Part shown: piece after piece, positions 1,418 to 22,692 of the stretch
How positions within the stretch are numbered: position 1 is the first letter of the stretch
Layout: every line of letters begins with the position of its first letter
Source of the DNA: Alphaproteobacteria bacterium
GTDB taxonomy: Bacteria; Pseudomonadota; Alphaproteobacteria; Rhodospirillales; Magnetovibrionaceae
Direction of reading: 5' to 3'
Length of the DNA stretch: 36,298 bases
NCBI GenBank assembly: GCA_015231605.1
Contig: JADGBG010000018.1
Span: forward strand, 1 to 36,298
The notes under the pieces: model-generated
Databases searched by the model: none
Told to the model about the DNA's origin: nothing
What the model saw: only the letters and a program-made list of their open reading frames with translations
Program-made: the position numbers and the translations under genes

Positions 1418-1840
1418 CTACCTTTCAGAGATTATGGCCTCGTAAGTGATTAATATCAATTCAGTTTTTTGTGCAGGCGTGAAGTTAAAACCCTTCTCTA
1501 TCACGAGTTCCTCAACAGCCTGTATGGCGGCCGCCAGGTGTTCCTTGTCGAACGCCTGGGGTTGAATGCGCTCTTTTTGCCCTTCCCCAGAAACCAGCCA
1601 TTCCAGTGAAACGCCGCAGGCCCTGGCAATCTCAGCGAGCGTCACCGCTTTCGGCTCCCGTTCCCCATTTGCATAGTTGAATAGGGTTTGCCGCGTGACC
1701 CCGGTTTTTTTGGCGACATCTGTCGCCCCGCCCGATTCGCGAATTGCTTCATCGATTCGCGCCGCGATTTCGGTCTTTCGACCCGTAACTCCGAAATTGT
1801 CTTCGGAGTTTTCTTCGCGTTTCGGAGTTTTACCAACCAT
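1418..1840 (-). CDS. Prophage repressor, XRE/CI-type helix-turn-helix protein
   Basis: A 140-residue DNA-binding protein, expected to keep the lytic genes silent in the lysogen. Residues 22-86 form an XRE/Cro-type helix-turn-helix: two helices around GGATDVAKKTGVTRQTLFNY, then NGEREPKAVTLAEIARAC, then VSLEWLVSGEG, the usual end of this domain in CI-like proteins. The last 50 residues are helical and polar, probably for oligomerisation; no LexA-type peptidase motif is present, so RecA-driven self-cleavage is unlikely. It faces ner across an AT-rich control region. No Shine-Dalgarno sequence precedes the ATG at 1840, and the mRNA may be nearly leaderless. Repeats of TTCGGAGTTTT lie inside its 5' end. 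Confidence 0.85.
   Translation of the reverse strand: MVGKTPKREENSEDNFGVTGRKTEIAARIDEAIRESGGATDVAKKTGVTRQTLFNYANGEREPKAVTLAEIARACGVSLEWLVSGEGQKERIQPQAFDKEHLAAAIQAVEELVIEKGFNFTPAQKTELILITYEAIISER
1787..1831. promoter_or_regulatory. Cluster of TTCGGAGTT repeats, candidate repressor operators
   Basis: TTCGGAGTTTT occurs at 1802-1812 and 1821-1831, starting 19 bp apart, and its inverted form AACTCCGAA is at 1787-1795. All three lie within the first 55 bp of the repressor reading frame. Three copies in 45 bp, with two-turn spacing and both orientations, look like a cooperative operator. They also encode part of the poorly conserved N-terminus, so a pure coding explanation is possible. Confidence 0.35.
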
Positions 1841-1911
1841 TTGTTTTTAAACAATCATTTCCATTTACGACAACGAACTTCGACAAAAAGAAGTCAGAAA
1901 TTAAATTTTCG

Positions 1912-1940
1912 TTGACCGTGACAACATTTGTTTACATTCT
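1912..1940 (+). promoter_or_regulatory. Candidate early promoter for the ner operon
   Basis: TTGACC at 1912-1917 matches a sigma-70 -35 element, and 17 bp later CATTCT (1935-1940) is a weak -10. The segment lies in the AT-rich interval between the divergent repressor and ner genes, where the early promoter must be. A leftward candidate in the same interval is TTGTCG with 17-bp spacing to TTAAAA, just ahead of the repressor ATG. Confidence 0.4.
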
Positions 1941-1972
1941 TGGTTCAGAACCCAACCAAAATACCCCACAAA

Positions 1973-1992
1973 AAAGCGGCCCCAACCGCTTT
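1973..1992 (+). terminator. Hairpin in the ner leader, attenuator-like
   Basis: AAAGCGG (1973-1979) and CCGCTTT (1986-1992) form a 7-bp stem with a 6-nt loop. It is preceded by a run of A and followed by TTTC only on a short scale. It lies in the presumed 5' leader of the early transcript, 12 bp before the ner start, so it could attenuate early transcription or act as a bidirectional terminator between repressor and ner. Confidence 0.35.
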
Positions 1993-2004
1993 CTAGAGAG
2001 ACCG

Positions 2005-2307
2005 ATGGCAAGACGAATTGACACCCACTGGAGCGACGTAAAGGCGGCCCTTGAAAAGAAGGGATCATGCCTTGCTGAGGTGGCCCGTTCGCTGAGCGTA
2101 ACAGAGGCCGCCGTTCACAAGGTCAAGCGGCGTCCGAACCATCGGATCCAAACCGCCATCGCCGAAGCCCTGAGCATGAAGCCCGAAGCCATTTGGCCGA
2201 CCCGCTATTTCGTCGCCAGCGGCAAGCCGATTCGACCTGTCATCTGGTTGAACCAGAATAGCAGGCGCGCGGCCTCGGCACATGTCAAAAATCGAAAGGC
2301 CGCCTGA
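2005..2307 (+). CDS. ner: Ner/Nlp-family transcriptional regulator
   Basis: A 100-residue protein of the Ner (Nlp, SfsB-like) family. In Mu, Ner binds the repressor/early control region and dampens both promoters during lytic growth. The family pattern is easy to see: THWSDVKAALEKKG at residues 7-20, LAEVARSLSVTEAAVHKVKRR at 23-43 as the helix-turn-helix, and AEALSMKPEAIWPTRY at 53-68, which ends in the diagnostic IWPxRY. The ATG at 2005 is preceded by AGAGAG; the frame stays open upstream to 1912, but that part is control DNA and not Ner-like. The 30 residues after IWPTRY are basic and extend beyond the usual length. Confidence 0.9.
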   Translation: MARRIDTHWSDVKAALEKKGSCLAEVARSLSVTEAAVHKVKRRPNHRIQTAIAEALSMKPEAIWPTRYFVASGKPIRPVIWLNQNSRRAASAHVKNRKAA

Positions 2308-2308
2308 C

Positions 2309-2491
2309 ATGCCCAGCAACGACGAAAAGTCCTTCTTGATCGCCGAATTGGGCGTGTTGGCGAGTGAACTGGAGATTAACCAGATCAACGCCATCGTCAC
2401 CTTCGCCGTCATGTTGCGCCTGGGCGGCGTCACGCCCGCCTTTTTCAGCCAGATCGCCGACGCTCTTGAAGGTCGCGGAGGTGAGCAATGA
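2309..2491 (+). CDS. Small hypothetical early protein
   Basis: A 60-residue protein of unknown function, predicted fully helical, with a central hydrophobic stretch (NAIVTFAVMLRLGG). I prefer the ATG at 2309, just after the ner stop, with GAAAGG upstream; an ATG at 2282 would overlap ner and add nine residues. The region after LNQI, with its LRLGGVTPAFFSQIADAL pattern, resembles the short helical segment of the 3646-3891 product (LSEHQIDAVCAFAELL). The two may be distant paralogues, though this rests on a visual comparison. Its 3' end overlaps the leftward gene 2445-2699 by 47 bp. Confidence 0.6.
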   Translation: MPSNDEKSFLIAELGVLASELEINQINAIVTFAVMLRLGGVTPAFFSQIADALEGRGGEQ

Positions 2492-2699
2492 CGCTTTCGT
2501 GCATCGCCTTGATCCGCCGGTCCTTCGTCTTGTCGTTTTCGAATGAATTGATGAGGTCCGCGACCGTCACGGAATCCTGCGTTTCCAGCAGCTCAATCGC
2601 CCGCGCTCCGGCAGGCGTCTTCCAAAACGTATCGCCAGCCTGGCGAAAGGTCTGCTCCATCCTTGCCGCGATCTTTTCGACTTTGTCATCCATATCCAT
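2445..2699 (-). CDS. Hypothetical protein on the reverse strand within the early operon
   Basis: An 84-residue, charged, helical protein that I do not recognise. Its amino-acid composition and G/C-ending codons are typical of a real gene, while the frame on the opposite strand gives a serine-rich, unlikely product. The start is uncertain: ATGs at 2699 and 2693 follow GGGGT, and the same frame has ATGs at 2732 and 2759. It points against the surrounding early genes, and its end overlaps the gene at 2309-2491. A leftward transcript from here would be antisense to the early mRNA. No clear promoter is visible in front of it. Confidence 0.6.
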   Translation of the reverse strand: MDMDDKVEKIAARMEQTFRQAGDTFWKTPAGARAIELLETQDSVTVADLINSFENDKTKDRRIKAMHESVIAHLRDLQERRRSG

Positions 2700-2816
2700 T
2701 ACCCCGGTTGGTTGTTTTGCGCCATCAACCATAGGGGAACGCGCGCCGTTCGTCATCATGGGAACCCACGCTTCCCGTGAAGGCGGGCGGCGCGCGGCTT
2801 TCGCAGGGAGTCTGTC

Positions 2817-3653
2817 ATGAAGATCGAGCAAATCGCCATCGCCGACATCGAGGTCAAGGACCGTTTGCGCCCCGTTACGCTGGAGGCGGTGAAGGGGTTG
2901 GCGGAGGACATCCGCAATCGCGGTCTTCGCCAGCCCGTGGAAGTCGCGGCCATCGGAGGCGGCCGTTACCGTCTCGTCGCCGGGGCGCACCGGCTTGCCG
3001 CCTGTCAGTCGATCGACATGGAAACGATCCCGGCGTTTGTGGTGGTCGGCACTGAGGCCAATCTGCGGCGTAGTGAAATTCTGGAAAACATCACCCGGAA
3101 CGAACTCAACGTCTTGGAACGCGTGCAATTCCTGGCGGAGCTCAAGCGGCTGTACCAGGAAGAGAACCCCGAAGCCACCAAAGGCGGTGATCGGCGCAGC
3201 GAGGAATTTCAAAGTGCCAACGTTGGCACTTTGAAAGATTGGTACGCCGAAGTGGCCATCCGGTCCGATCGCGCCGTCCGCACCATCAAGCGGGAAGCGT
3301 CGATCGGTTTCCGCCTGGACAAGGAAGCCGTGGATGTGCTGCGCGCCACGGACATCGCGGACAATCAGAAAAAACTCGAGGCTCTGTCCCGCCTGGAGCC
3401 CAAGATGCAGAGGGAAATCGCCTTGACCTTCACCTATCTGCGCCCCCCGCGCTCCGTGGCCCAGGCCGTCAAGGCGATCGAGGGCCGTTCGGAGCCGGAT
3501 GAAACCGACCCGGTCGCGGTGCAGTTTCACAAGCTTCTGGACACCTGGACCCGCAACGACAACGCCAAGGCGCGACGCCAGTTCCTGGATCAGCTGATCG
3601 AGGACGGCGTTCTCGCCGAGGGCTGCATCAAAAAGGGGCGCTGTGATGGCTGA
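2817..3653 (+). CDS. ParB/Spo0J-type N-terminal domain protein
   Basis: A 278-residue protein whose first 110 residues match the ParB N-terminal (ParB/sulfiredoxin-like) domain: IEVKDRLRP, then LAEDIRNRGLRQPVEV, then YRLVAGAHRLAAC (the counterpart of the GERRxRA motif, here GAHRLAA) and ENITRNELNVLERV. True ParB uses this pocket for CTP and centromere spreading. A basic helix-turn-helix-like region follows at about residues 140-190. The ATG at 2817 overlaps no gene and follows GCAGGGAG. Similar proteins occur near the transposase in some Mu-like phages of alphaproteobacteria; the role there is unknown, with DNA binding or regulation the most likely. Residues 131-140 are encoded by a perfect 30-bp palindrome. 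Confidence 0.85.
   Translation: MKIEQIAIADIEVKDRLRPVTLEAVKGLAEDIRNRGLRQPVEVAAIGGGRYRLVAGAHRLAACQSIDMETIPAFVVVGTEANLRRSEILENITRNELNVLERVQFLAELKRLYQEENPEATKGGDRRSEEFQSANVGTLKDWYAEVAIRSDRAVRTIKREASIGFRLDKEAVDVLRATDIADNQKKLEALSRLEPKMQREIALTFTYLRPPRSVAQAVKAIEGRSEPDETDPVAVQFHKLLDTWTRNDNAKARRQFLDQLIEDGVLAEGCIKKGRCDG
3207..3236. repeat. Perfect 30-bp palindrome, codon-aligned within the ParB-like gene
   Basis: The left half reads TTTCAAAGTGCCAAC (3207-3221) and the right half is its exact reverse complement (3222-3236), with no central gap. The palindrome starts on a codon boundary of the ParB-like gene and spans exactly ten codons, FQSANVGTLK. Read on the other strand in the matching phase it gives the same peptide. 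It falls between the ParB-type domain and the helix-turn-helix region. I saw no other copy in the window. Confidence 0.95.
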
Positions 3654-3891
3654 CGTCGCGGACCGGTACAGGGATCGGGTCAGGGCGATCGAGCGCCCAC
3701 ACCCCATCCGCCGCCTTTTGACAGCGATCGATGGTCTGAGCGAACACCAGATCGACGCGGTGTGCGCCTTCGCCGAATTGCTGAACACGGAACACGCCAG
3801 CCCGGCCCTGTCCGATGCGGAATTTGTGCGCACCCGGCTGGGCGCATCGCGCGGACAAACCATCATTTTTCCGGTGAGGGGACGCTCATGA
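3646..3891 (+). CDS. Small hypothetical early protein
   Basis: An 81-residue protein not recognised. It has a basic N-terminus (RYRDRVRAIERPHP), a helical centre (LSEHQIDAVCAFAELLNTEHASPAL) and a basic tail. The ATG at 3646 overlaps the end of the ParB-like gene, and the stop overlaps the next gene by 4 bp (ATGA), so translation is probably coupled. The central helix resembles that of the 60-residue product at 2309-2491. Confidence 0.65.
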   Translation: MADVADRYRDRVRAIERPHPIRRLLTAIDGLSEHQIDAVCAFAELLNTEHASPALSDAEFVRTRLGASRGQTIIFPVRGRS

Positions 3892-4346
3892 TCCGGCGCG
3901 ACGACAAAACCCTCAACCTGTTCGACTGGACGCCGCCCAAGATCGTCAAGCGGTTCGACGATCAGCGGGTTCGGGCGGTCGAACTGCGCGACCTGATCTC
4001 GCGCGGCGTGGCCGAGACGTTGCGCAATTGCGAACTGCCCCGCGCCGAGATCGCCGAGAAGATGAGCTCATGGCTGGGCGAGGACGTGTCCGCCAACATG
4101 CTGGATCAGTACGCCAGCCCGGCCAAGGACGAGCACGTCATCCCGCTGCACCGCGCCCTGGCGCTGATCCATGTGACCGGCGACGACGTGCGGCTGTTGC
4201 AGCTGATGGCGGAAATGTTCGCCCACGCGGTCATCGAGAGCCGGTACGTCCACGCCGTCCATGAGGCCATCCTCACCGAACAGATGGAGACCCTGGCGCG
4301 CGAGCGCAAGCATCACCGCAAGGGCTGGAAAGGGAGCGTGTCATGA
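3888..4346 (+). CDS. Hypothetical protein upstream of the transposase, possible HTH
   Basis: A 152-residue, mostly helical protein. Residues 30-85 (ELRDLISRGVAETLRN, then AEIAEKMSSWLGEDVSANMLDQYAS, then VIPLHRALALIHVTG) have the spacing of a helix-turn-helix of the regulator type, where a sequence-reading helix is followed by a dimer or packing segment. Proteins of this kind lie directly before the transposase gene in Mu-like phages of related bacteria; their role is not established. Both ends overlap neighbouring genes by 4 bp (ATGA), so it is part of a tightly coupled early operon. Confidence 0.7.
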   Translation: MIRRDDKTLNLFDWTPPKIVKRFDDQRVRAVELRDLISRGVAETLRNCELPRAEIAEKMSSWLGEDVSANMLDQYASPAKDEHVIPLHRALALIHVTGDDVRLLQLMAEMFAHAVIESRYVHAVHEAILTEQMETLARERKHHRKGWKGSVS

Positions 4347-6487
4347 AGGATTGGTTCAACGCCGCCGAGTTGTCCGCCATGGCGCTGCCGGGGCTTCCGG
4401 GTACCGAACGCGGGATCCTTGACCGAGCTGAGCGCGAAGGCTGGCACACCCGCAAGAATATGGCCGGCGGCGCCCTGGCGCGCAAACGGTCCGGGCGCGG
4501 CGGCGGTGTCGAGTTCCACTACACGGTCCTGCCAACCAAGGCGCAGGCCAAGATCGCGGCGGAACTGGCCCCGGTGAAGGCCGACCTGGCCGCCGAAAAG
4601 TCCCAGTTCGCGTCCGAAGAAATGTGGGCGTTCTTCGATCGGCTCCCCGACACGCGCAAGGCCAAGGCGAAGCACTGCCTGGCCGTGATCGAAGAGGTCA
4701 ACGCGCTGTATCGCGGCGGGATGCCGAAGAACCTGGCGGTGCATGTCGCCGCCAAGCGCAACGGGATCAAATCTGAACAGACGATCTGGAACTGGTACAA
4801 CAAGATCGCAGGCGTGCCGCGCGCCGACTGGCTGCCGGCGCTCGCCCCGCGCAACACGGGGCGCACCGCGACGGTGGAATGCTCGCCTGAGGCCTGGGAC
4901 TTCATCAAGTCCGACTACCTACGCGCCGCGCGCCCAACGTTCGAGAGCTGCTATCGCCGCCTGGGCCATGCCGCCGAGGCCCACGGTTGGACGGTCCCGT
5001 CGATCGCCACGCTCAAGCGCCGGATCGAGCGCGAGGTTTCCAGGCCGGTGATCGTCCTGGCGCGCGACGGCATCGACGCGCTCAAGGCCATGTTCCCAGC
5101 CCAGGAACGCGACCGATCGATCTTTCATGCTCTGGAAGCGGTCAACGCCGACGGTCACAAGTGGGACGTCATGGTGCAATGGCCCGACGAGGACAAGCCC
5201 ATGCGCCCGATGATGGTGGCGATCCAGGATTTGTACTCGGGCAAGATCCTGGCCTGGCGCATCGACAAGTCCGAAAACAAGGAGGCCGTGCGCCTGGCGA
5301 TCGGCGACGTGGTCGAAACCTATGGCATTCCCGAGCACATCTGGCTGGATAACGGCCGCGCCTTCGCCTCCAAGTGGCTCACCGGCGGCATCGAGAACCG
5401 CTTCCGCTTCAAGATCAAGGAAGAGGAACCGGTCGGCATCCTCACCCAGCTGGGCGTCGAGGTGCATTGGACGCTGCCTTACAGCGGCCAGTCAAAGCCC
5501 ATTGAGCGGGCCTTTAGAGACCTGTGCGACAACGTCGCCAAGCATCCGGCCTTTGAAGGCGCTTACACAGGCAATTCGCCCATGAACAAGCCTGAAGATT
5601 ACGGGTCGCGCGCCGTGCCGATCGAGGACTTCATCCGCGTGGTCGACGAAGGCATCCGCGAACACAACCAGCGTCCCGGCCGCCGCGCCGCCGTATGCCG
5701 TGGGCGGTCCTTCGAGGAAACCTTCAACGCCTCATACGCCCAGGCTCCGATCAAGAAGGCCTCCGACGAACAGCGCCGCTTGTGGCTGCTGGCCGCCGAG
5801 GGTGTCACCGCCGCCAGCCGCGACGGGGCGCTCAAGCTCATGGGCAACCGGTATTGGGGCGATTTCCTGCATGGCCACATGGGCCAGAAACTGGTGGTCC
5901 GCTTCGATCCCGACAACCTGCACAGCGGCCTGCACGTCTACCGGCTGGATGGTTCTTATCTCGGCTGGGCGGATGCGATCGAAAAGGTTGGCTTCAACAG
6001 CGTCAGCGACGGCCGCGAACAGGCCCGCGATCGCGGCAAGTTCATGAAGGCAACGGCGGATCTGCGCGATCTTCACGTCAAGCTCACCGGCGAAGAGATC
6101 GCCGCGCACCTGCCCACGCCGCCGGCGCTTCCCGTGATGGAAAGCAAGGTGGTGCGCATGGCCGCCCCCGCTGGCTCCGATCCGCTGATGAAGCGTCCCG
6201 CCGCACCGCAGCCAGCAGGCCTCAGCGCCGAGGAAGAAGCGGAAGCCGATCGCATTCTGGCGGCCATGTCCGGCGCTGAAACCGAGGGGGCCGAGGTTGT
6301 GCGTCTGCAGGTGGTGCAGAACGGCCGGCCCAATTTTGAAACCGATGAGGAATTCGCGCGCTGGGTGTTCGACAACCCGGCCCTTGCGGATGAGGCGGAC
6401 CGCGCCCGGGTTGGCGAACTGATGAGCGACCCGTCGTTCCGTCTGTTGATGGGCCATGCGGCCCAAGAAAAAAGCCGCCGCGCCTGA
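4343..6487 (+). CDS. A: MuA-type DDE transposase
   Basis: A 714-residue transposase that joins phage ends to target DNA for integration and replicative transposition. The N-terminal part (about residues 1-60) is the Mu DNA-binding/winged-helix region: WFNAAELSAMALPGLPGTERGI. Residues 90-230 correspond to the end-binding domains. The RNase H-like catalytic core shows the DDE triad: D270 in VNADGHKWD, D336 in IWLDNGRAFAS and E388 in SKPIERAFRDLC. This is nearly the same spacing as in MuA (D269, D336, E392). The beta-barrel domain follows, and the C-terminal tail is where MuA contacts MuB. The length is close to that of MuA (663) with a longer tail. It starts within the previous gene's stop and precedes the B gene. 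Confidence 0.97.
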   Translation: MKDWFNAAELSAMALPGLPGTERGILDRAEREGWHTRKNMAGGALARKRSGRGGGVEFHYTVLPTKAQAKIAAELAPVKADLAAEKSQFASEEMWAFFDRLPDTRKAKAKHCLAVIEEVNALYRGGMPKNLAVHVAAKRNGIKSEQTIWNWYNKIAGVPRADWLPALAPRNTGRTATVECSPEAWDFIKSDYLRAARPTFESCYRRLGHAAEAHGWTVPSIATLKRRIEREVSRPVIVLARDGIDALKAMFPAQERDRSIFHALEAVNADGHKWDVMVQWPDEDKPMRPMMVAIQDLYSGKILAWRIDKSENKEAVRLAIGDVVETYGIPEHIWLDNGRAFASKWLTGGIENRFRFKIKEEEPVGILTQLGVEVHWTLPYSGQSKPIERAFRDLCDNVAKHPAFEGAYTGNSPMNKPEDYGSRAVPIEDFIRVVDEGIREHNQRPGRRAAVCRGRSFEETFNASYAQAPIKKASDEQRRLWLLAAEGVTAASRDGALKLMGNRYWGDFLHGHMGQKLVVRFDPDNLHSGLHVYRLDGSYLGWADAIEKVGFNSVSDGREQARDRGKFMKATADLRDLHVKLTGEEIAAHLPTPPALPVMESKVVRMAAPAGSDPLMKRPAAPQPAGLSAEEEAEADRILAAMSGAETEGAEVVRLQVVQNGRPNFETDEEFARWVFDNPALADEADRARVGELMSDPSFRLLMGHAAQEKSRRA

Positions 6488-13019: not shown

Positions 13020-13357
13020 ACCACGTCATTTACATGCCCGCGCGGCGATGCGGCACATGGGCGTTCAACCGTCTGCAAAGCCACCTGCATGCGGTCGCCC
13101 ACGCCAGCACGCGCGGCATCGACCTCGACCTCCAGGACCTGGATCGCATCGAACGATCCATCCGGCGCATGACGCCCGTGTTCAACCGTCCCGGACAGTC
13201 GCAGTACTTCATCACCACGCGCTACAAGGGCCAGCGCTTCGCCGTTCTGTTTGACGCGCAGCTGGAACACATCATCAGCGTCGGCCTGGCGCGGTCTCTC
13301 GTCTCACACGCCCATTGGATCGTGGCGGATGAATGGTCGAATGGGTCCGAAAGATGA
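13016..13357 (+). CDS. Hypothetical protein
   Basis: A 113-residue protein, not recognised. It reads as a mixed alpha/beta domain with VIYMPARRCGTWAFNRLQSHLHAV at the start, a segment GIDLDLQDLDRIERSIRRM and QYFITTRYKGQRFAVLFDAQLEHIISVGL in the second half. The pattern of a strand, basic residues and LFDAQ resembles small phage proteins at this site that are annotated only as hypothetical. It overlaps gemA by 4 bp and ends just before the reverse-strand gene, so it is the last member of this early block. Confidence 0.6.
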   Translation: MNHVIYMPARRCGTWAFNRLQSHLHAVAHASTRGIDLDLQDLDRIERSIRRMTPVFNRPGQSQYFITTRYKGQRFAVLFDAQLEHIISVGLARSLVSHAHWIVADEWSNGSER

Positions 13358-14635: not shown

Positions 14636-14661
14636 CCCCGGAACTTGTTCCGGGGTTTTTT
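14636..14661 (+). terminator. Rho-independent terminator after the Mor/C-like gene
   Basis: CCCCGGAAC (14636-14644) pairs with GTTCCGGGG (14647-14655) around TT, and TTTTTT follows (14656-14661). It is a textbook intrinsic terminator that ends the middle operon. The core CCCCGGAACTTGTTCCGGGG is repeated exactly at 22668-22687. Only 28 bp remain before the YkuD gene, so the late promoter must overlap this spot or lie upstream with transcription passing through the hairpin. Confidence 0.9.
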
Positions 14662-16132: not shown

Positions 16133-16507
16133 ATGGCGCTGCCGAGCGATGTCGGGATCGACGCCAAGCTTGCCTACACCGTCGTTCGGGATGTGGCTAC
16201 GTTGGCTTTTTTCGCCTGGATGATCATCACCAATCGGGCACGGGCGAACCGTTCCGAGATCGATGCCGTGCGCAAGGAATACGGCGCGCGCCTCGACCGT
16301 CATGGCGAACGCTTGACCACCATCGACACCCGCATGGAAGCCATGCCCCGGCATGGGGATCTGGAAAATATTCACGAACGCATCAACCGGGTCATCACCA
16401 GTGTAAGCGACGTGGGCAAAAACGTATCCGGCATCCAGGGGGCCATGGACGGCATCAAGAATCAACTCACCCTTTTGACGAACCATCACATCGGGGGGAA
16501 AGACTGA
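16133..16507 (+). CDS. DUF2730 family protein (Mu gp25-like)
   Basis: A 124-residue protein with one N-terminal membrane helix (residues 17-33, RDVATLAFFAWMIITN) followed by a long coiled coil with many charged residues, ending in GIKNQLTLLTNHHIGG. This is the DUF2730 layout at its standard position between lysis and packaging genes in Mu-like phages (Mu gp25). Some members may act as spanin-like or lysis accessory proteins, but the role is not established. The ATG at 16133 follows GGGGGAAATAAC. Confidence 0.8.
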   Translation: MALPSDVGIDAKLAYTVVRDVATLAFFAWMIITNRARANRSEIDAVRKEYGARLDRHGERLTTIDTRMEAMPRHGDLENIHERINRVITSVSDVGKNVSGIQGAMDGIKNQLTLLTNHHIGGKD

Positions 16508-22662: not shown

Positions 22663-22692
22663 GAACACCCCGGAACTTGTTCCGGGGTGTTC
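22663..22692. repeat. 14-bp-stem hairpin sharing the 20-bp core of the 14636 terminator
   Basis: GAACACCCCGGAAC (22663-22676) pairs with GTTCCGGGGTGTTC (22679-22692) around TT. The core CCCCGGAACTTGTTCCGGGG (22668-22687) is identical to the terminator core at 14636-14655. It has no T-run on either side. It lies 19 bp upstream of the DUF4145 start on the leftward strand and 72 bp upstream of the gpI gene on the rightward strand. It could be a protein-binding operator, an mRNA processing site or a weak terminator. Confidence 0.85.

Follow-up and report, generated by a model that had tools for sequence, protein, structure and literature searches.

A palindrome inside a ParB-like gene of a Mu-like prophage as the probable loading site of the encoded protein

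Results

The stretch of alphaproteobacterial DNA analyzed here (the window, 36,298 nucleotides) contains a perfect 30-bp palindrome, which is very probably the cognate loading site, comparable to parS, NBS or O_B, of the ParB-like protein in whose own linker codons it lies. Inverted repeats are conserved at this place in related genes and occur there in all three reading frames, their letters covary with specific residues of the recognition helix, the rules derived from this covariation succeeded in held-out genes, and site and helix were exchanged as one block. Such a coupling of position, letters and reader is what would be demanded of a protein that reads its own site. The best reading of these sequence comparisons is that site and reader form a self-contained specificity cassette within one gene, and they suggest that the protein physically binds the palindrome.

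A perfect palindrome in the codons of a ParB-like gene

The proposed site consists of TTTCAAAGTGCCAAC followed directly by GTTGGCACTTTGAAA (3207-3236), two arms of 15 nt that are 100% complementary and have no spacer. It coincides with the in-frame codons of residues 131-140 (FQSANVGTLK) of the ORF at 2817-3653, which confirms the original prediction of a perfect, unspaced palindrome of ten codons. The predicted placement in the linker applies to most of these codons, the last two belonging to the first HTH helix of the AlphaFold2 model (residues 139-150, 3231-3266, plus strand). A 24-bp core, CAAAGTGCCAA-CG-TTGGCACTTTG (3210-3233), was delimited by half-site comparison as the portion with counterparts in relatives and is of the even spacing class described below.

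At the base composition of the window, 0.0001 perfect 30-bp palindromes are expected, and 0 of 200 Markov-1 simulations yielded a 15-nt arm (longest arm 12 nt vs. 15 nt observed). A chance origin, which had been considered very unlikely beforehand, was ruled out by these two results. On the antisense strand, an open frame of 473 codons (2445-3866, minus strand) spans the whole ParB-like gene, and the palindrome gives this frame the identical decapeptide, as had been foreseen. The antisense frame is probably a by-product of the G + C-rich codons.

The encoded protein and its genomic context

The ParB-like gene (2817-3653, plus strand) encodes 278 aa, comprising a ParB_N CTPase-type domain (residues 3-92, 2823-3092, Pfam match), a linker, an HTH and C-terminal helices. 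The recognition helix of the HTH (residues 154-166, 3276-3314) was located with the AlphaFold2 model and by alignment with the HTH of Noc and Spo0J. The match to PF02195 (ParB_N) has an E-value of 9.3e-12 (45.3 bits, cut-off 26.3), and the gene was assigned to phrog_3264 ("ParB-like partition protein", E 9.3e-55). The AlphaFold2 model, based on 47 sequences, reached a pLDDT of 92.2, the palindrome codons coinciding with a less reliable part of the model (about 75 for blocks 121-140) and with the start of helix 139. Searching this model with Foldseek returned Noc (7nfu, E 5.2e-10), ParB (6t1f, E 1.1e-8) and KorB (8qa9, E 3.1e-8), and VIA-align superimposed 195 residues on 7nfu_B (Z 13.4, rmsd 7.1). 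Among solved structures, Noc, ParB, Spo0J and KorB come nearest, and sulfiredoxin does so for the N-domain taken by itself. The residues G56, R59, E90, N91 and R94 (GxxR and ENxxR), which we take to be the CTP nucleotide boxes, are the same in all 47 sequences aligned. By its ParB_N domain, fold and box residues, the protein is a member of the ParB/Noc/KorB CTPase-clamp family. A specific palindromic DNA site, as in other members of this family, is indicated by the coevolution described below, and CTP-dependent clamp loading and sliding would be expected from the family membership.

Downstream of the ParB-like gene, a CII-like regulator (phrog_2345; 3888-4346, plus strand, ATG at 3888 read from the sequence) is followed by a MuA-type transposase (phrog_310; PF02914, E 1.4e-56; 4343-6487, plus strand) and, in the place of MuB, by an AAA ATPase that matches TniB. 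RcapMu and RcWaterboi have the same gene order, and the element in the window is a Mu-like prophage. Among 99 related genes with at least 1.8 kb of downstream sequence, a MuA homologue follows on the same strand in 87 and one of the CII-like regulator in 67.

In L088, one of the twelve loci without MuA, a ParA-type ORF lies directly upstream (PF13614, CbiA/ParA family, E 5.7e-23). Together with the ParB-like gene and its embedded palindrome it occupies positions 2249-3855 of this locus, which may be a full ParABS system whose parS lies within parB. The ParB-like protein of L176 (2995-4170), also without MuA, is fused to an MT-A70 methyltransferase domain (E 4e-27), and its ParB_N match is slightly below the Pfam cut-off. 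In both genes the embedded dyad has 9/9 pairs, and its letters at positions 3 and 6 are those required by the rules given below. Dyads of 8/9 or 9/9 were also found in loci with the titles Clostridia, Oscillospiraceae and Planctomycetaceae; MuA was not observed in their vicinity, only some of these loci having enough flank.

Some further elements of the window were recorded. The 20-bp palindrome CCCCGGAACTTGTTCCGGGG occurs twice (14636-14655 and 22668-22687); TTTTTT comes directly after the first copy, the arms of the second reach 14 nt (22663-22692), and both look like intrinsic terminators. Within about 100 bp after a tRNA-Phe gene (875-950), GGGATATGG is present at 1025-1033 and 1045-1053, perhaps as transposase-binding repeats of the left prophage end. 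A 99-nt tRNA-Pro reported by ARAGORN (13134-13232, minus strand) overlaps open reading frames and is likely spurious.

Embedded inverted repeats in related genes

Relatives were drawn from phage records, IMG/VR contigs and genomes, giving 160 loci with the gene, of which 140 are distinct. After the incomplete L082 had been dropped, 139 genes were analyzed. Comparing the DNA of homologues, along the lines suggested with the prediction, revealed inverted repeats at the same spot, with letters varying by gene, e.g., CGGTGGGAAAACTTTTCCCACCG in RcapMu, AACAGGGTAATGATTACCCTGTT in phage StopSmel, ATCGAAGGGCACCGAGTGCCCTTCGAT in phage Aussie and CGACCAAACGGACACGATGTCCGTTTGGTCG in L015. What is conserved is the embedded dyad in general, not the perfection of the window copy. 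Close relatives of the window gene share its core in less perfect form: of the core pairs, L013 keeps 7/9, L047 8/9, L014 8/9, L046 9/9 and L001 5/9, L001 and L013 being the nearest.

In the linker, defined as the codons between the ENxxR motif and the HTH, a dyad score of at least 9 was reached by 56.1% of the 139 genes, compared with 0.74% of equal-length windows from other parts of these genes and 3.2% after synonymous-codon shuffling. For a score of at least 11, the values are 38.8% for the linkers, 0 for the control windows and 0.85% for the synonymous shuffles. The gene-by-gene test is weaker, with 71 of the 139 linkers beating all 40 of their own synonymous shuffles.

Nine core pairs were evaluated for each of the 139 distinct genes, of which 53 form 9/9, 59 form 8/9, 22 form 7/9 and 5 fewer; at least 8/9 are thus present in 112 genes. 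As a background, the best dyads in two other gene regions reach at least 8/9 in 15/94 and 13/94 genes, these 94 having been preselected for 8/9 in the linker. The 27 genes with at most 7/9 pairs stand outside the rule counts; when a relocated site was sought in them, other full dyads were found at some loci, none identifiable as the site.

The centres of the odd-type dyads fall in all three reading frames (64, 9 and 8 genes), and the same core GGACACGATGTCC lies inside TDTMS in L015 and, in a different frame, inside SGHDVH in L063. A peptide-level cause of the dyad was ruled out by these observations. The averaged half-site reads, from the centre outward, roughly (T/A)T(G/T)(T/G)C(G/C)(T/G)TTT(G/C), with T at position 2 in 90% and C at position 5 in 87%. 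Linker length varies among the relatives, and two spacing classes were distinguished (81 odd and 15 even of 96 genes), which would need some structural accommodation. The best columns for the spacing class are residues 150 and 163, with other columns nearly as strong.

The varying letters bear on two other explanations that had been offered for the palindrome. An mRNA hairpin controlling translation or stability of the early operon would agree with the strong RNA fold of the window site (-21.4 kcal/mol, z -6.3; z -6.6 and -4.6 in two relatives), but any comparable palindrome folds in this way. Structured cis-regulatory RNAs keep G.U pairs along with Watson-Crick changes, whereas G.T is not commoner than A.C (24 vs. 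25) among the 103 mismatched pairs counted over the 134 genes that reach 7/9 or better. As the letters also follow residues of the DNA-reading helix (see below), the hairpin is highly improbable.

The second explanation, a mobile palindromic element inserted in frame, would account for the common position across genes, the length of ten codons and the variable linker length. Elements of the Rickettsia type occur as many dispersed copies of one element per genome, whereas the proposed search of the host genome (3.18 Mb) found the palindrome in a single copy with up to three mismatches tolerated. One full copy of the cognate site is likewise present in each of seven phage records and in the window. 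The best second matches are slightly above the shuffle maximum, given here in brackets: 16/22 at 16190 in the window (15), 18/23 in L184 (16), 18/23 twice in L187 (16) and 18/23 in L189 (16). At the homologous position, the letters differ between relatives and yet obey the helix rules. An inserted element is, of all the explanations considered, the one with the least to commend it.

Covariation of the site with the recognition helix

Mutual information was calculated between each dyad position and 247 protein columns for 96 genes that are less than 80% identical and have at least 8/9 pairs. The best column is residue 159 for dyad position 3 (z 30.2, next 10.6), residue 158 for position 6 (z 17.1, next 4.0) and residue 155 for position 5 (z 8.8, next 4.3); position 7 likewise tracks residue 158 (z 11.7). 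The codons of residues 155, 158 and 159 lie outside the palindrome, the median distance from codon 158 to the dyad centre being 64 bp (interquartile range 55-71 bp). For positions 4, 8, 9 and 10, the best columns are residues 122-137, inside or just before the palindrome codons, and these signals may be a coding effect and no proof of reading. For positions 1 and 2, the strongest columns are residues 184 and 17 (z 9.4 each), which the proposed reading does not account for. Against residues 158 and 159, dyads taken as controls from two further regions of these genes yielded z-values between -1.1 and 2.0.

In the training table, Arg159 is accompanied by G at position 3 in 62/68 genes, other residues at 159 in 0/28. 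G at position 6 accompanies Gln158 in 26/29 and Glu158 in 18/18 genes, C at this position Arg158 in 24/25, the exceptions including one Arg158 with T6 and one Gln158 with A6. With Arg155, C is found at position 5 in 75/76 genes, with other residues at 155 in 8/18. Arg paired with guanine on either strand would be sensible chemistry. Counted over 112 genes, eight have Arg159 and T3 (L016, L017, L048, L053, L074, L076, L079 and L140) and two have Gln158 and C6 (L085 and L086). In the window copy, of the even spacing class, Arg155 (3279-3281, plus strand) and Arg159 (3291-3293, plus strand) predict C5 and G3, and both letters are present. The residue that predicts position 6 in relatives is Lys158 here (3288-3290, plus strand); it goes with A6, as in L046, and elsewhere Lys goes mostly with C, being weakly informative (training genes: A in 2, C in 6).

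A tree with 112 tips was calculated from the columns outside the linker and the HTH. On this tree, the class of residue 159 (Arg or not) changes at least 14 times and that of residue 158 (Gln/Glu or Arg; 84 tips) at least 24 times, compared with a mean of 24.2 for shuffled labels. Disjoint nearest pairs differing in class have both letters as predicted in 31/31 cases for residue 159 and in 27/28 for residue 158. Contrasting pairs may be near-identical elsewhere, as are L122/L124 (distance 0.02) and L015/L065 (0.01).

These data also speak to the view that site and helix are merely linked, by lineage or short-range recombination, and that another protein binds the palindrome. Their short distance and their joint exchange (see below) would fit such a linkage. 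The signal should then spread to neighbouring columns, whereas for positions 3 and 6 it is concentrated in single columns, and residue 158 changes as often as shuffled labels with the site still following it. Mere linkage is very unlikely on this evidence.

Verification in held-out genes

The rules were fixed first, and then 207 further loci, many of them the same contigs again, were added. With identity to any training gene limited to less than 90%, 107 genes remained, of which 88 are non-redundant and 86 could be parsed (all except L385 and L388). Scoring was carried out for the 62 genes with at least 8/9 pairs, the 24 of 86 below 8/9 being left unscored. Arg158 predicted C6 in 16/16 and Gln or Glu158 G6 in 30/30 genes. 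For Arg159, G3 was found in 27/28, and 32/34 genes with another residue at 159 lack it, the remaining two having one G and one asymmetric site. All 50 genes with Arg155 have C5 (50/50), compared with 0/12 of those without. Among other residues at 158, Asn goes with C (5/5), Phe or Tyr with A (4/4), Lys with C (3/3) and Ala with A (1/1); Asp is mixed (C once, T twice).

Three explanations had accompanied the original prediction. A parS-like or operator site for the gene's own protein is strongly supported by the coevolution with the recognition helix, whereas the inserted element and the hairpin were not borne out.

Exchange of site and reader

The genes of RcapMu and RcWaterboi, both phages of Rhodobacter capsulatus, share 25-30 of 30 bases per block (24/27 in the last), with the exception of five successive blocks with 22, 9, 13, 17 and 24 of 30 identical bases. 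As this divergent stretch of about 135 bp holds both the palindrome and the recognition helix, site and reader were replaced together. For the looser pair Aussie/StopSmel, the drop in identity is less sharp.

Co-resident copies of the gene have different sites in the window's own genome and in G055, G489, G490 and G492, and identical sites in G475; this count leaves out G038, G384, G461, G496 and G497 with weak dyads or unparsed copies. Since unrelated pairs usually differ as well, the differences between co-resident copies are no proof of selection for difference. The second ParB-like gene of the window's own genome (L235, G000:C171) is located near a run of N and has a different embedded site of the TGTCG type, with Glu158 and Arg159.

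Discussion

Proposed mechanism and function

According to the proposed mechanism, a dimer would place one recognition helix on each half-site, where residues 155, 158 and 159 would read dyad positions 5, 6 and 3. The CTP-dependent clamp would load at the site and then slide. The site may lie in the linker because the linker codons are least constrained, and about 64 bp from the reader codons because the linkage would then survive recombination. Most likely, the clamp would be loaded on the early operon, either for autoregulation or silencing or for marking of the phage DNA.

An autoregulatory or long-range silencing site on the early operon, in the manner of KorB, is a plausible function, if somewhat short of a probable one. 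It would suit the single full site per phage in an early gene and the absence of an annotated ParA gene from the seven phage records. KorB is moreover a structural match, and its long-range silencing has been published to involve a sliding clamp (PMC11790492). Less easily accommodated is the position of the palindrome about 390 bp inside the gene, and a simple promoter and terminator scan of 1800-4400 gave no match near it.

Marking of the phage DNA as self, for immunity against self-transposition or for synapsis of the phage ends, is rather unlikely. The MuA homologue downstream in 87 of 99 relatives is consistent with it, and most of the Mu genome immunity stems from factors other than MuB according to PMC7350765, but Mu itself lacks a ParB-like protein (PMC5488378). 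A true parS for partition is a degree less likely still: the ParA-type ORF upstream in L088 and the membership of ParB and Spo0J in the family point towards it, whereas the same seven phage records lack an annotated ParA and an integrated transposing phage would have little need of partition. We favour silencing or repression as the likeliest use, followed by self-marking, with partition less likely in the Mu-like members.

Comparison with known systems

The ParB-like protein resembles chromosomal ParB-parS in its ParB_N domain and HTH and in its palindromic site, and a site inside parB is known there as well: the Bacillus subtilis precedent named in the prediction is real, namely parS-359 (PMC4442127). 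In PMC7383237, site preference was conserved among 17 ParB and 4 Noc proteins tested, and the specificity of Noc for NBS is set by a few HTH residues, a likeness to the rules found here. The family of the window gene differs from chromosomal ParB-parS in that its site varies by gene, together with the reader, at a homologous linker position.

In the alignment, judged by eye, an Asn of Noc and Spo0J stands opposite residue 159 and is presumably the equivalent of N178 of Caulobacter ParB. N178 contacts parS and is conserved in ParB and Noc, as stated in PMC7383237. The switch residues known from there are 173, 179, 184 and 201, whereas those found here would be about 174, 177 and 178 in that numbering.

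The ParB-like proteins of the Mu-like phages RcapMu, vB_ThpS-P1 and POA1180 ("ParB-like nuclease", "partitioning protein") belong to the same family as the window protein. KorB of plasmid RK2, similar by its fold match, has a palindromic operator and forms a sliding clamp. Its operators are present in many copies on RK2, whereas here there is one full site per phage, within the gene.

An embedded site is not mentioned in the accessible portions of the vB_ThpS-P1 and vB_PeaS-P1 literature, and the main text of a ParB-fold survey (PMC12704722) does not contain "palindrom", "inverted repeat", "transpos" or "mu-like". The literature searched, which covers few subscription papers and some sources in part and includes PMC7333895, PMC12207404 and PMC2783167, yielded no description of phage parB genes with an embedded site that coevolves. 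Already known is a parS inside parB of Bacillus subtilis; new within this literature is that a whole family has a site embedded at one homologous place, varying by gene and travelling with its reader.

Significance

As a wider proposal, which is doubtful at present, transposable phages might carry a swappable and self-contained self-recognition cassette, a single gene in which about 130 bp hold both the reader and the site for clamp loading. It would diverge fast, each clamp would load only on its own genome and label this genome as self where several prophages reside together (for transposition immunity or incompatibility), and the design would recur in related ParB-like genes that are not from Mu-like phages.

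For a ParB-type HTH, a protein-DNA recognition code was derived from sequence alone and passed a held-out test. The evolution of protein and site can be traced here change by change, which is usually hard with sites lying elsewhere. A likely cognate site is supplied for about two hundred ParB-like proteins; those from phages currently carry no annotation beyond "ParB-like nuclease" or "partition protein". The embedded site thereby offers a direct way to ask what role a ParB clamp may have in a transposing phage, including the part of Mu-type immunity that is unexplained by MuB.
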